A stretch of 64,000 nt of DNA, taken from assembly GCF_015689335.1 (NCBI RefSeq), contig NZ_CP065053.1, positions 3,658,001-3,722,000 of the forward strand, read 5' to 3'. The stretch is from Massilia antarctica (lineage in GTDB: Bacteria > Pseudomonadota > Gammaproteobacteria > Burkholderiales > Burkholderiaceae_D). The notes under the pieces are model-generated. The model was not told where the DNA came from. It did not search any database and saw only the letters and a list, made by a program, of their open reading frames with translations. Below are positions 6,054 through 27,527 of this stretch, one piece after another (positions within the stretch are counted from its first letter, which is position 1; each line of letters starts with the position of its first letter). The translations under genes were made by a program, and so were the position numbers.

Positions 6054-6932
6054 TCAAGTCATGCGCGTGCGCGCCAGCTCGATCAGCGCGAACAGGCGCG
6101 CGCTGCGCGTCCAGCCGATGGTGACCACCGCCGCTTGCGTCAGCAGCAGGGCGGACGTGAAGCCCAGCGCATCGACCCCCGCCATGTTCGCGCGCGCCAG
6201 CGCCAGCAGGCCGGCCACGGCAAGGCCGGCGATGCTGATGCCGACGTAGCTGCCTAGCGCCGCCAGCGGATGGCGCACCAGCAGCGTGCAGCCCGAGCGC
6301 CACGCCCCCAGCGCGGAGTGTTTGCGCGGGTCGTAGGCCAGGAAGGCGCGCCCGGCATCGAGCGAGACAGTCACCAGGCCGATGAGCAGCACCATCAGCG
6401 CCTGCGCCAGCATTAGCGGCAGCGCCGCGTCGTCCGCCGCGATGGCCTTGCCGGCGTAGGCGCTCGCCGCGTCGATGGCGCTCATGCCGGCGACAAACGC
6501 CACGCCGAGCGGCAGCGCGCCCCAGGCCAGCAGGCGCAGCATGGGGGCGTAGTAATCGACGCCGCCGCGCGTGAGCGCCGCGAAGCTTGGCACGTGCTCC
6601 GCGCGCGCCGCCGTCGCCACCATCCCCGACAGCATCGGTGAAATCAGCACGGTGGCCAGCAGCGCCATGCTGCCGGCCTGGGTAACCGCCACCTGGTGGC
6701 GCGCGTGCACGGCCATCAGGTCGCTCAAGGCCGTCATGTCGAGCGCGCGCGCCAGCGCCGCCGCGTGCACCGAGTAGTCGAGGCTGGCCGAGAGCAGGTG
6801 CCAGGCTGGCAGCGCCATGATCAGGGTCGGCACCAGCATCCACAGGACCCACAGCAGCAGCAGGCGCCATTGCAGCGCCGCGCGCGCGGCCCGTGGAATG
6901 GAGGCGATCGAAAAGGGAGGAGTCGGATGCAT
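6054..6932 (-). CDS. Multi-pass membrane protein, partner of the M1 peptidase
   Basis: A 292-residue hydrophobic protein with about six membrane segments (one near residues 20-45 with WVLWMLVP, others around 90-110, 135-150, 165-190, 225-250 and 255-275). No recognised catalytic motif. Its ATG overlaps the stop of the upstream M1 metallopeptidase gene by one base (TGATG), a hallmark of translational coupling. A GTG one codon earlier is an alternative start. The coupling suggests the protein assists, anchors or exports the peptidase. Function unknown. Confidence 0.72.
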   Translation of the reverse strand: MHPTPPFSIASIPRAARAALQWRLLLLWVLWMLVPTLIMALPAWHLLSASLDYSVHAAALARALDMTALSDLMAVHARHQVAVTQAGSMALLATVLISPMLSGMVATAARAEHVPSFAALTRGGVDYYAPMLRLLAWGALPLGVAFVAGMSAIDAASAYAGKAIAADDAALPLMLAQALMVLLIGLVTVSLDAGRAFLAYDPRKHSALGAWRSGCTLLVRHPLAALGSYVGISIAGLAVAGLLALARANMAGVDALGFTSALLLTQAAVVTIGWTRSARLFALIELARTRMT

Positions 6933-24517: not shown

Positions 24518-25915
24518 TCACTCCAGCTGGGTCTGGACGCTCGCTACGCCCACCTCGGCGCTGCCCTCGGCCAGGCGCACGGTGAGCACCTCGTTCGGCT
24601 TGATCTGCAAGGGCGAGCGCACCACCTTGCCCTTGGTATCTTGCACGATGGCGTAGCCGCGTTCGAGCGTGCGCTGGGGATTGAGCAGGTCGAGTTGAGA
24701 CGCCAGCGCGCCCAGCGCATTGCGCTTCTGGCCAAGTTGATTGGCCAGGCTGCCGGCGGTGCGGCGCTGCTGCGACGCGATCTCGGCGCGCAGCGCGCGC
24801 AGGTCCGGCCGCTGGCTGGCCCAGCGCGCGCGCAATTGCGCCAGAGCATAGGCCTGGCGTTGCACCGGCGCCCGCAGCGCGTGTGTCAGCGCGGTCGACA
24901 GCGCCACCAGTTCCAGGCGCTGGTGGCCGATGCGTGCCGAGGGGCTCAGCAGCCGGCGCTGCCAGTTGTCCAGGCTCTGGTGCGCGTCGTTCAGGGTGTG
25001 GCGCATCGCGCGCCGCAGGTCGCCGGCGTCGGCCGACAGCGAGGCGATCCAGTCCGCGCGCGGGGTGGCGGCCAGTTCGGCGGCGGCGGTCGGGGTCGCC
25101 GCGCGCAGGTCGGCGGCAAAGTCGGCGATGGTGAAATCGGTCTCGTGGCCGACCCCGGAAATGACCGGCATGGCGCAGTTGGCAATCGCATGGGCCACCA
25201 CTTCTTCGTTAAAGCTCCACAAGTCTTCGATCGAACCGCCGCCGCGGCACACCAGCAGCAGGTCCACTTCCGCCCGGCGCGACGCCGTTTGAATAGCGCC
25301 GGCAATCCGGTCGGCCGCGCCCTGGCCCTGCACTGGGGCAGGGTAGAGCACGATGCGCACGTGCGGCGCGCGCCGCTTGAGCGCGCTGAGGACGTCGCGC
25401 AGCGCCGCCGCCTGCGGGCTGGTGACGATGCCGATGCTGCGCGTGAACAGGGGCAGGGGACGCTTGCGCTCCCGGTCGAACAAGCCCTGCGCGCCCAGTT
25501 TCTCCTTCAGGCGCAGGAAGGCTTCGTACAGGGCCCCCACGCCGGCGCGGCGGATCGCCTCGACGTTGATCTGGTAATCGCCGCGCGCGCCGTACAGGGT
25601 CACCAGGGCGCGCACCTCGACCTTGTCGCCTTCGCGCGGAATGAAGCCGGCGTACTGGGCGCGGCCGCGGAACATCACGGCACGCACCTGGGCGGCGTCG
25701 TCCTTGAGTGTGAAATACCAGTGGCCTGAACTGGCGCGCGTGAAGTTCGATATTTCACCGCTGATCCAGGTCAGCGGAAAGGAGCGTTCCAGCAGGCGCG
25801 CCACCTGGGCATTGAGCGCGCTAACGGTCAGCACCGGCGGCGCGCCAGGCGACGCGCCAGGCGACGCGCCAGACGGCGGAGCGAACAGGGGATCTTGGTC
25901 GAAATCGGTGTGCAT
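24518..25915 (-). CDS. xseA: Exodeoxyribonuclease VII large subunit
   Basis: 465 residues with an N-terminal OB fold ([25 protein letters not shown]). The catalytic core includes [29 protein letters not shown] and [19 protein letters not shown], and a C-terminal coiled coil is present. With XseB it degrades single-stranded DNA in repair. The N-terminus carries [12 protein letters not shown] from a 12-bp repeat (about 25850-25875), an unusual low-complexity insertion before the OB fold. The six-module DnaA/IHF array begins 155 bp upstream of its start, so the array could influence its promoter. Confidence 0.95.
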
Positions 25916-26069
25916 GGGAAGAGTTCCGGAATAACTGTCCACAAAATTTTAAAGCGGTCATGCTTATGTCACATATCGCGCAGAACAACAAGACTTTTTT
26001 CTAAGTCGATGATTTTAAACGAAAAAGCTAAGGTGCTGGTTTTCCTCGCAATGGCGGAAATCCCTTCTG

Positions 26070-26134
26070 AATCAAGCACTTTGGCGGTCCGGGCGGGAGT
26101 TGCTCACAAAGTTATCCACAGAAATTGTGTAGAA
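26070..26134 (+). promoter_or_regulatory. IHF/DnaA module 1
   Basis: AATCAAGCACTTT (one mismatch to the IHF consensus) at 26070; TTGCTCACA at 26100; perfect DnaA box TTATCCACA at 26112-26120; inverted TGTGTAGAA at 26126-26134. Confidence 0.8.
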
Positions 26135-26198
26135 GTTTTGCTGTACGTACACGCGGGCAACTGCCTGCTGCTTGCGCACCGGCTTGCTATCTCTTTGT

Positions 26199-26263
26199 AA
26201 TCAAGCGCTTACGCGCTTCCGGAGTGGCTTGCACACAATCTTGTCCACAGAAGCTGTGCAGAA
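26199..26263 (+). promoter_or_regulatory. IHF/DnaA module 2
   Basis: AATCAAGCGCTTA (full IHF consensus match) at 26199; TTGCACACA at 26229; TTGTCCACA at 26241-26249; inverted TGTGCAGAA at 26255-26263. A further TTATCCACT sits at 26273, offset +74. Confidence 0.85.
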
Positions 26264-26338
26264 CTGCCCGGCTTATCCACTGTCCGGTCCCGGCGCGGTC
26301 CCTGCCATTCATTTGAGCATGGGGATATTATCGTTTAA

Positions 26339-26403
26339 AATCAATGGGTTGATACAGTGTTGACGGGCTTGCTCACAATCTTGTCCACAAAAGGTGTGCA
26401 GAA
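26339..26403 (+). promoter_or_regulatory. IHF/DnaA module 3
   Basis: AATCAATGGGTTG (full IHF consensus match) at 26339; TTGCTCACA at 26369; TTGTCCACA at 26381-26389; inverted TGTGCAGAA at 26395-26403. TTGTCCACC at 26413 is again at offset +74. Confidence 0.85.
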
Positions 26404-26528
26404 CGCGCCGACTTGTCCACCGCAGTCCAATACCGGGAAAATGGGCGCCCGTGATGGCGTTTCGGGCGCCCAAATAGCCGCTTATCCCTGTTTGCCGCAT
26501 ATTTGTGCACGACCGTATTATTCAATGA

Positions 26529-26593
26529 AATCAAGGGATTGGGGAGACTTCGGCGGCCTTGCTCACAATCTTATCCACAAAAGGTGTGCAGAA
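26529..26593 (+). promoter_or_regulatory. IHF/DnaA module 4
   Basis: AATCAAGGGATTG (full IHF consensus match) at 26529; TTGCTCACA at 26559; perfect TTATCCACA at 26571-26579; inverted TGTGCAGAA at 26585-26593. Confidence 0.87.
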
Positions 26594-26645
26594 GATGTGC
26601 GCGCCAGCCTGCCTTATTTTTGCGCTTGAACCTTTTTTCCTTTTT

Positions 26646-26710
26646 AATCAGGGACTTGACCCTCCACCCCCGGTATTGCTAACAATCTTATCCACAGTTT
26701 TTGTTCAGAA
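26646..26710 (+). promoter_or_regulatory. IHF/DnaA module 5
   Basis: AATCAGGGACTTG (one mismatch to the IHF consensus) at 26646; TTGCTAACA at 26676; perfect TTATCCACA at 26688-26696; weaker inverted TGTTCAGAA at 26702-26710. Confidence 0.82.
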
Positions 26711-26773
26711 CACTGGCTGAATTTTTAATTTTCCACATGCCTTATTTTTGCGCACGGCAAATTTTCCCTTTGA

Positions 26774-26838
26774 AATCAAGCACATCGTCCCGCTTGGGGG
26801 CGCTTGCGCACAATCTTATCCACAGAAGGTGTGCAGAA
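26774..26838 (+). promoter_or_regulatory. IHF/DnaA module 6
   Basis: AATCAAGCACATC (core WATCAA intact, TTR lost) at 26774; TTGCGCACA at 26804; perfect TTATCCACA at 26816-26824; inverted TGTGCAGAA at 26830-26838. It lies about 85 bp before the exbB start. Confidence 0.82.
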
Positions 26839-26921
26839 GTGGACTTGCCGAGTGACTGGCAACACGTTACATTGCCGGGGTTCGTTCTTATCAAGAATTA
26901 CCTTTCACTCAGGAGTTTGTT

Positions 26922-27527
26922 TTGCTGCCCATTCTTCAAGCTGCAGGTTGGCCAATCTGGCCGTTGCTGATCGCCTCTCTCGTCGCTTTAGCCTTGATCG
27001 TCGAGCGCATTATTTATCTGCGCCGCGCCAAAATCCTGCCGCCGCAGCTGCTCGATGAAGTGGTGCGCGTCTATCACAACGGCAAAATCACCAAGGACGT
27101 GGTCGAGTCGCTCGAAAAGAACTCGCCGCTCGGCGCCGTGCTCGCCGCTGCCCTGCGCAATGTCGACGCGCCGCGCGAAGTGATGAAGGAATCGATCGAA
27201 GAAGCAGGGCGCGGCGTGGCCCACGTGCTGGAACGCTTCCTGACCACCTTGGGCACCATCGCCTCCCTCGCTCCGTTGATGGGCCTGTTCGGCACGGTGG
27301 TCGGCATGATCGAGATTTTCGGTTCCACCAGCTCGACCGGCGCCAATCCGGCCCAACTGGCACACGGGATTTCGGTGGCGCTGTACAACACCGGTTTCGG
27401 CCTGGCCATCGCCATGCCTTCCCTGGTTGCCTACCGCCACTTCCGCGCCCTGGTCGACAGCTTCATCATCGACATGGAATTGCAGGCAGTGAAGTTCGTC
27501 GACGTCGTGCACGGTGCCCGCAAATGA
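26922..27527 (+). CDS. exbB: MotA/TolQ/ExbB proton channel family protein
   Basis: 201 residues with three membrane segments (about 10-30, 110-130 and 150-172) and the conserved GTVVGMIEIF and NTGFGLAIAMP motifs of ExbB/TolQ. With ExbD it forms the proton-driven motor that energises TonB and receptors such as the BtuB in this window. It starts with TTG: AGGAG at 26911-26915 lies six bases before it, and no ATG occurs until well inside the protein. It overlaps exbD by ATGA. The promoter must lie within or next to the DnaA/IHF array. Confidence 0.93.
   Translation: MLPILQAAGWPIWPLLIASLVALALIVERIIYLRRAKILPPQLLDEVVRVYHNGKITKDVVESLEKNSPLGAVLAAALRNVDAPREVMKESIEEAGRGVAHVLERFLTTLGTIASLAPLMGLFGTVVGMIEIFGSTSSTGANPAQLAHGISVALYNTGFGLAIAMPSLVAYRHFRALVDSFIIDMELQAVKFVDVVHGARK

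Follow-up and report, generated by a model that had tools for sequence, protein, structure and literature searches.

Six modules in the xseA–exbB gap

The gap between xseA and exbB of Massilia antarctica contains six head-to-tail modules, each of which combines a sequence resembling the IHF consensus with three DnaA boxes arranged much as in the DnaA-reactivating sequences (DARS) of Escherichia coli. We analyzed a stretch of 64,000 nucleotides, referred to here as the window (G000:C1:3658001-3722000, G000 being the M. antarctica genome, a single contig of 7.43 Mb). Since Pfam matches place xseA on the minus strand and exbB on the plus strand, the array sits in a divergent gap. Coordinates are those of the window, and offsets within a module were counted from the start of its DnaA-box triplet, which we call the core.

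26034..26838, plus strand: whole six-module array, first dyad to last box I; no indels over this stretch in seven species
26034..26050, unstranded: module 1 dyad TGC-N11-GCA, offset −66; 6 mismatches to GNNYAAWWWTTRNNC, a poor match to the Fis consensus
26070..26082, plus strand: module 1 IHF-like site AATCAAGCACTTT, 1 mismatch
26100..26134, plus strand: module 1 DARS-type core (box III 26100-26108, box II 26112-26120, inverted box I 26126-26134)
26162..26178, unstranded: module 2 dyad TGC-N11-GCA, offset −67
26199..26211, plus strand: module 2 IHF-like site AATCAAGCGCTTA, 0 mismatches
26229..26263, plus strand: module 2 DARS-type core
26303..26319, unstranded: module 3 dyad TGC-N11-GCA, offset −66
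26339..26351, plus strand: module 3 IHF-like site AATCAATGGGTTG, 0 mismatches
26369..26403, plus strand: module 3 DARS-type core
26493..26509, unstranded: module 4 dyad TGC-N11-GCA, offset −66; 2 mismatches to GNNYAAWWWTTRNNC
26529..26541, plus strand: module 4 IHF-like site AATCAAGGGATTG, 0 mismatches
26559..26593, plus strand: module 4 DARS-type core
26610..26626, unstranded: module 5 dyad, TGC-N11-GCT, one base off; 1 mismatch to GNNYAAWWWTTRNNC
26646..26658, plus strand: module 5 IHF-like site AATCAGGGACTTG, 1 mismatch
26676..26710, plus strand: module 5 DARS-type core, the weakest, 4 mismatches of 27
26738..26754, unstranded: module 6 dyad TGC-N11-GCA, offset −66; 1 mismatch to GNNYAAWWWTTRNNC
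26774..26786, plus strand: module 6 IHF-like site AATCAAGCACATC, 2 mismatches
26804..26838, plus strand: module 6 DARS-type core
24518..25942, minus strand: xseA, flanking gene reading away from the array (Pfam Exonuc_VII_L, 3.2e-106)
26922..27527, plus strand: exbB, flanking gene reading away from the array (Pfam MotA_ExbB, 1.9e-29)

The IHF-like sites start at 26070, 26199, 26339, 26529, 26646 and 26774. Each is followed 30 bp later by a DnaA-box triplet (26100, 26229, 26369, 26559, 26676 and 26804), of which the inverted box, box I, stands at +56 from the IHF-like site. Successive modules are 129, 140, 190, 117 and 128 bp apart, and the 805-bp array holds 18 DnaA-box positions. Four modules have TTATCCACA as box II and the other two have TTGTCCACA; as box III, module 5 has TTGCTAACA and the remaining five have TTGCNCACA. 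The IHF consensus WATCAANNNNTTR is matched in full in modules 2, 3 and 4, with one mismatch in modules 1 and 5 and with two in module 6. The pattern TTGCNNACANNCTTRTCCACA, at up to two mismatches, had six matches in the window and none in 100 shuffles; similarly, the three-box geometry at up to five mismatches of 27 was found six times in the window and not at all in 40 first-order Markov sequences.

An earlier note on this DNA had described six modules between xseA and exbB, with fixed offsets of +30, +42 and +56 from the IHF-like site, spacings of 117–190 bp and full IHF matches in modules 2–4, and our coordinates, spacings and mismatch counts agree with it on each of these points. Its statement that the inter-module DNA varies in length holds within the array but not between close species, where the length is fixed. 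It had missed the TGC-N11-GCA dyad, and also that the genome carries another array, 576 kb from this one, with three modules.

The core has the geometry of DARS1 and DARS2

The three boxes of a core are arranged as direct, 3 bp, direct, 5 bp, inverted (III-3-II-5-<I), and the six window modules depart from this geometry by 2, 2, 2, 2, 4 and 2 mismatches of 27. We scored E. coli MG1655 in the same way, taking its bioD-uvrB gap to be DARS1 and its rppH-ygdT gap to be DARS2. DARS1 had 2 mismatches, DARS2 had 3 and datA had 5, and oriC had 9 at best. The bioD-uvrB core reads TAATACACA-3-TTATCCACA-5-inverted TTATCCACT (2 mismatches), and the rppH-ygdT core, before mutH, reads TTCTTCACA-3-CTATCCACA-5-inverted TTATTCACC (3 mismatches). 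When 576 partner arrangements around box II were ranked by total mismatches, a direct partner at 3 bp with an inverted partner at 5 bp was the best for the window (14; next 18) and also ranked top for DARS1, DARS2 and the second array. According to a passage of PMC5742627, DARS1 and DARS2 share DnaA boxes I–III with equal spacing and with box I opposite to II and III, and part of a review (PMC10380432) presents the head-to-head pair of boxes I and II as characteristic of DARS and functionally essential. We found no further box at a fixed place in the module; for extra DnaA boxes such as the TTATCCACT after module 2, the commonest offset accounted for only 23 of 460 modules.

The IHF-like site is held at a fixed phase

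In 22 loci chosen by core hits, WATCAANNNNTTR (up to one mismatch) stood exactly at −30 in 91 of 120 cores (up to one mismatch), and the next offset reached 12. Loci of other genera that were fetched by the core pattern alone had an IHF-like site at −30 in 59 of 86 cases and at −29 in 8. A larger set of 120 loci was fetched with the phase-locked pattern itself, and the phase test on this set omits every module matching that pattern; among the 248 non-redundant modules outside the retrieval pattern, the site (up to two mismatches) was at −30 in 202 and at −29 in 37. Linker positions −15 to −6 carried at most 0.12 bit each, though the length of the linker is fixed. Some cores without an IHF-like site at −30 (L084, L085 and L108) have box sequences that resemble those of the priA-hemE cores described below.

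A putative DARS2-type IHF site is present on the box III side of all six window modules, at −30 and with zero to two mismatches. In MG1655, two IHF-like sites lie at −87 and −71 from the DARS2 core and are 3 bp apart, which agrees with a remark on IBS1 and IBS2 in the DARS2 paper (PMC4245941). As reported in part of the same paper, shifting IHF by 5 bp was more harmful than shifting it by 10 bp away from the core, and a 10-bp shift towards the core was also harmful.

A fourth element, a Fis-like dyad, lies upstream of the IHF-like site

Position-wise information over the 460 non-redundant modules revealed a further block from −66 to −50, a TGC-N11-GCA dyad with a T-rich centre, which was found at −66 in 216 of them. 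The core-only set from the genus had the dyad at −66 in 39 of 73 modules and at none of 43 control offsets; in the core-only set from other genera it was at −66 in 14 of 63, with five more at −67. The Fis consensus, given in a passage of the literature as GnnYAnnnnnTRnnC, was matched without mismatch at −65 in 56 of the 460 modules versus 0.5 per control offset, and with up to one mismatch in 215 versus 7.1. Only modules 4–6 of the window have two or fewer mismatches to GNNYAAWWWTTRNNC; over the family the phase-locked dyad is enriched for Fis matches, and Fis may be the protein that binds it. The order of elements in each module, core, IHF and Fis-like dyad, is the same as in E. coli DARS2, where the description of shifted sites in part of PMC4245941 gives core, IBS1-2, FBS2-3.

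Array length is locked between close species and otherwise changes mostly by 1–2 bp or whole helical turns

All five spacings were identical in the window and six close relatives. Across the 805-bp array, seven close species (21 pairs, 82% identity) showed 3067 pairwise substitutions and no indels. In 21 pairs the numbers of indels and substitutions were 18 and 264 for the sodB-xseA gap, 21 and 64 for the array-exbB gap, 24 and 2894 for xseA, and 20 and 561 for exbD. We rejected a coding cause of the missing indels, because the array is overlapped by only four plus-strand open reading frames of at least 80 amino acids (84–101 amino acids) and also because the 10- and 11-bp indels described below are not multiples of three. 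Identity to the window in the close species was 100% for box II, 99.5% for the dyad ends, 98% for boxes I and III, 94% for the fixed letters of the IHF-like site, 74% for inter-module DNA and 69% for linkers. With boxes at 98–100% and linkers at 69%, the uniform divergence across modules that the earlier note had named as a check was not seen.

Across 96 distinct arrays, 496 of the 726 orthologous spacings that we compared were identical. The 96 distinct spacing changes were of 1 bp (22), 2 bp (6), 9–12 bp (30), 20–23 bp (12) and 31–33 bp (7); three were of 3–8 bp, and the others were scattered (13–14, 19, 24–26, 36 bp and longer). For changes of at least 4 bp, 46 of 68 fell within 1.6 bp of whole 10.7-bp turns, where 27.5% were expected. 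Among array groups named after their titled members, ten Janthinobacterium-type arrays (76% identity, 11052 pairwise substitutions) had 45 indels, all of 1 or 11 bp, the Duganella type had indels of 1, 9–12, 20–21 and 59 bp, and the Pseudoduganella type had indels of 1–2, 10–12, 45 and 55–56 bp. Spacings pooled by genus gave a peak period of 10.9 bp (R 0.41, n = 128), a value reached by 0 of 2000 jittered sets. With one locus per group (10 groups), the mean R was 0.45 at 10.75 bp versus 0.16 in jittered sets. From these comparisons, both the length and the motifs of the array appear to be under selection.

Locus L104 (G029) differs in kind, having five modules of near-identical sequence 245–246 bp apart, a recent module amplification.

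Distribution and chromosomal position

The core pattern (up to one mismatch) was found in all 17 genomes of the genus and in at least 257 of 294 genomes of the family, and neither set gave a control match; some of the cores behind the 257 are of the priA-hemE type. With cores throughout the genus set (17 of 17) and locked array lengths, the absence or random spacing of the module in relatives that the earlier note had raised as a check was not observed. Among 399 genomes of the order, 20 had the phase-locked pattern (up to one mismatch), of which 9 belong to the 13 from the M. antarctica family and 11 lie elsewhere; more than one match per genome was confined to the family. Of 369 genomes of the class, two had the exact phase-locked pattern, one of them G706, with a single site.

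Scanning the genomes of named species gave at least 120 stretches, 80 of them with titles; the counts of titles, loci and modules that follow are among the matches listed. By name, six titled stretches fell outside the Oxalobacteraceae or could not be placed (two Methylomonas, a Coxiella endosymbiont, a Legionellaceae metagenome-assembled genome (MAG), a Rubrivivax MAG and one proteobacterium), one was a Burkholderiaceae MAG, and the rest carried Oxalobacteraceae names, including Massilia, Duganella, Janthinobacterium, Rugamonas, Pseudoduganella, Collimonas, Herbaspirillum, Noviherbaspirillum, Undibacterium, Herminiimonas and Keguizhuia. The family placement of the titled genera was partly checked and is partly our assumption. 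The matches in the two Methylomonas, the Coxiella endosymbiont and the Legionellaceae MAG (L147, L168, L170 and L184) are single phase-locked combinations of IHF-like site and core. An XseA or ExbB match was present in 103 of the at least 120 stretches, and both were present in 76. These 76 loci have 1 to 9 modules between the two genes, and all of their 372 modules point towards exbB.

In the M. antarctica genome dnaA is at 1366 kb and the array is at 3684 kb. GC skew, sampled in 44 stretches, was mixed at 0–1.1 Mb, mostly positive at 1.3–5.2 Mb and negative at 5.4–7.2 Mb, with no switch near 3.7 Mb in the sampled stretches; this course places the array inside a replichore. We located dnaA in 14 genomes, most with sizes rounded to 0.1 Mb, and used it as a stand-in for the origin; the array lay at 53–72% of the replichore from dnaA in 13 of the 14. 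A passage of PMC5010248 reports that the E. coli DARS loci and datA keep their relative distances. General conservation of gene order may be the cause of the stable distance between array and dnaA.

The proteins that would act on the array are encoded in the genome. IhfB (3645 kb) and IhfA (6163 kb) are both above curated cut-offs. A 77-amino-acid Fis-family protein follows directly after dusB (DusB 402.7 bits, cut-off 293.3), which is the neighbour of fis in E. coli as well; in the genome search this protein scored 92.7 versus a cut-off of 99. DnaA is identical to E. coli DnaA at 246 of 458 residues and retains D269, R285 and L290, which part of a review names together with R227.

The array is probably a set of compact DARS2-type sequences

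The box arrangement, the order of elements, the phasing, the selection on motif and length and the conservation in related xseA–exbB gaps point to one interpretation. We consider it probable that compact DnaA-reactivating sequences of the DARS2 type are arrayed at this locus, activated by IHF and possibly by Fis, and helically phased into one nucleoprotein structure. Binding by DnaA, IHF and Fis, release of ADP, the direction of the effect and cooperation between modules are what we infer from the sequence. In such an array, ADP-DnaA would bind box III, box II and inverted box I of each module. The head-to-head DnaA pair on boxes II and I would be distorted and lose its ADP, and the released apo-DnaA would take up ATP. 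The IHF bend at −30, possibly with Fis on the −66 dyad, would assemble the complex and switch it on. With spacings close to whole turns, all modules would face the same side of the helix. The array would then probably wrap up as a single structure, and its output would rise with module number and help to set the start of replication. DARS1 and DARS2 lost activity when transcribed through, as stated in a passage of PMC5010248, and the divergent gap may protect the array from transcription, although three promoter-like sites lie within the array itself.

A number of observations weigh against this interpretation. Boxes I and III match the E. coli consensus weakly, and in a first geometry scan at up to five mismatches, 3 other arrangements of 288 likewise reached six places; these ties were resolved by the ranking of 576 arrangements. 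Compared with E. coli DARS2, the IHF-like site is closer to the core by 41–57 bp (−30 versus −71 and −87). Both exbB and a 91-bp flank on the xseA side are also free of indels (888 and 206 substitutions). Distinct spacing values alone gave weak periodicity (R 0.19, reached by 416 of 2000 jittered sets), and because the arrays share ancestry, counts from related arrays are not independent events. In the family, 37 of 294 genomes had no core at the pattern used, among the matches listed, and the array of G016 is only 4% of the replichore away from dnaA. Residue R227 of E. coli DnaA is replaced by H and E21 by Q. The Fis-family protein scored just below its cut-offs (118.3 versus 122 for the Fis-family model and 88.6 versus 99 for the E. 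coli-type model). Furthermore, the protein on the dyad may be one other than Fis, because the best-conserved dyad letters include a fixed T, C, G and A that lie outside the Fis consensus, window modules 1–3 and the second array have 3–9 mismatches to a stricter Fis pattern, and the loose consensus (up to one mismatch) also matches the DnaA boxes themselves, in 315 of 460 modules at +2 and 283 of 460 at +16.

E. coli DARS2 is among the known systems closest to the array. Both have the three-box core in the same orientation with 3- and 5-bp gaps, an IHF site on the box III side and the order core, IHF, Fis or Fis-like, and both are intergenic. They differ in the position of IHF (−87 and −71 in DARS2, −30 in the array) and in size, DARS2 being a 455-bp locus and an array module about 100 bp; in addition, the array has 1–9 tandem copies with a helical phase between them. 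DARS1 shares the core arrangement (2 mismatches) and lies, by our own calculation, at about 66% of the distance between oriC and the point facing it, compared with 62% from dnaA for the array. However, DARS1 has no IHF consensus within 160 bp of its core and is a single 101-bp site that, according to part of PMC5742627, works in vitro without other factors.

The most credible alternative, although an unlikely one, is that the array is a DnaA sink whose up to 18 boxes titrate DnaA, in line with the titration model, with no nucleotide exchange, IHF merely assisting binding. The 18 box positions in 805 bp and the extra cores elsewhere in the genome would suit a sink, as would the rise of core number with genome size (Spearman 0.52, p 0.0003; 44 genera, one genome each, uncorrected for phylogeny), and the case for titration in E. 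coli is made in a passage of a paper from 2025 (PMC12371093). Titration, however, requires neither the DARS core arrangement nor the IHF phase nor near-whole-turn spacing, all of which are apparently selected. The earlier note had proposed a tandem array that either titrates or reactivates DnaA. This proposal is supported, and the DARS1/DARS2 core with its head-to-head pair and the DARS2-like order of core, IHF and Fis-like dyad favour reactivation over pure titration, although some titration by the array would occur in any case.

We regard as improbable a datA-like locus, at which IHF and DnaA would assemble to hydrolyse DnaA-bound ATP so that the array represses initiation. Like the array, datA is a chromosomal locus away from oriC that combines DnaA boxes with an IHF site; minimal datA, in the published passages on it, consists of boxes 2, 3 and 7 and one IHF site, and datA is described there as inactivating DnaA. 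Its box arrangement is different, however: scored one way, datA against the DARS geometry, it has 5 mismatches with the box I position unmatched, compared with 2 for DARS1 and 3 for DARS2. Nor do the figure legends list a Fis site for minimal datA, and the head-to-head pair in the core is described in part of PMC10380432 as characteristic of DARS.

Somewhat less probable again is a DnaA- and IHF-dependent promoter region for exbB or xseA. The array does lie between divergent genes with all 372 modules facing exbB, and a consensus scan of its plus strand found three promoter-like sites versus 1.1 expected. In contrast, module number ranges from 1 to 9 at the same gene pair, the second array adjoins other genes and the core matches DARS. 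A secondary or former replication origin is very improbable; oriC too is made of DnaA boxes and IHF sites, but E. coli oriC misfits the core arrangement with 9 mismatches at best, and the sampled GC skew, mostly positive from 1.3 to 5.2 Mb, does not switch near 3.7 Mb. That a single DARS-like site was duplicated neutrally in tandem is refuted for the window by the contrast between motifs (94–100% identical) and linkers (69%) and by the indel-free 805 bp at 82% identity in 21 species pairs, with the indels of other groups mostly 1 bp or near whole turns, even though the copies are head to tail and the near-identical modules of L104 indicate that duplication does occur.

DARS-like sequences themselves are known in proteobacteria. 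Part of a review (PMC10380432) describes DARS1- and DARS2-like sequences as conserved in many proteobacteria, and review text refers to beta- or gamma-proteobacteria proximal to E. coli; in a passage of their work, the authors of DARS2 describe the locus as conserved, together with its IHF and Fis sites, in gamma-proteobacteria near E. coli. Our search of open-licence papers found no tandem, helically phased DARS array and no paper that pairs DnaA-reactivating sequences with Betaproteobacteria. What appears to be new here is the tandem, helically phased, multi-copy version.

Extending the DARS2-type interpretation from this locus to the family, we tentatively suggest that Oxalobacteraceae may run DnaA reactivation from a multi-module machine, in which 1–9 DARS2-like units on one helix face would be folded by IHF and Fis into one cooperative superhelical complex, and in which selection would tune the number of units, and thus the initiation mass, while mostly permitting only whole-turn changes in length. 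Whether bacteria tie the start of replication to growth by switching DnaA or by titrating it is under debate, with arguments drawn largely from E. coli. The family provides a natural series, since the reactivation-like module stands at one conserved locus in anything from 1 to 9 copies, and module copy number, helical phase and dependence on IHF and Fis are each variables whose effect could be read as initiation mass. The length lock, in which indels are mostly 1 bp long or close to whole turns, would likewise provide strong evidence from evolution that a DARS module can work as part of a larger nucleoprotein assembly.

Other cores in M. antarctica and its relatives

A pattern scan of the M. 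antarctica genome gave 17 matches and 1 in the control. We rejected a mobile repeat, since besides the six-copy array the matches comprise one array of three copies, a handful of single cores and some at the level of chance. An RNA element was likewise rejected, as Rfam gave no match at gathering scores in 25900-26960.

The second array has three modules of the same architecture (G000:C1:4260080-4260402; L021:5080-5403), with TTGTTAACA as box III and one mismatch in each IHF-like site. It lies between open reading frames that, from their sequences, we read as TonB-receptor-like and gluconokinase-like, the latter by Pfam AAA/shikimate-kinase type only. Two to three cores of this kind are also present in G002, G003, G005, G007, G009 and G016.

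The priA-hemE gap (L022:4335-4925; G000 at about 1515.3-1515.9 kb) is rich in DnaA boxes, contains AT-rich stretches, matches the IHF consensus perfectly at two sites, and may be the chromosomal oriC. An origin directly upstream of dnaA was rejected, as that region has a single perfect DnaA box. Two single DARS-type cores, which share the stretch GCATTTTGT.GAAACCCGC, lie 3.6 kb apart at L023:4342-4376 and L023:7923-7957, each with an IHF-like site in reverse orientation at −96 or −97. The single cores (priA-hemE and those at 6275 and 6278 kb) have the same three-box core as the array, with one mismatch each. Unlike the array, they have one full core per site, are not arrayed and have IHF reversed and 66–67 bp further off (−96/−97). 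Single modules with a shifted IHF-like site, 1.5–3.8 kb apart, were also observed at L075:2679, 4196 and 7309 (G013) and at L076:3090 and 6925 (G015).

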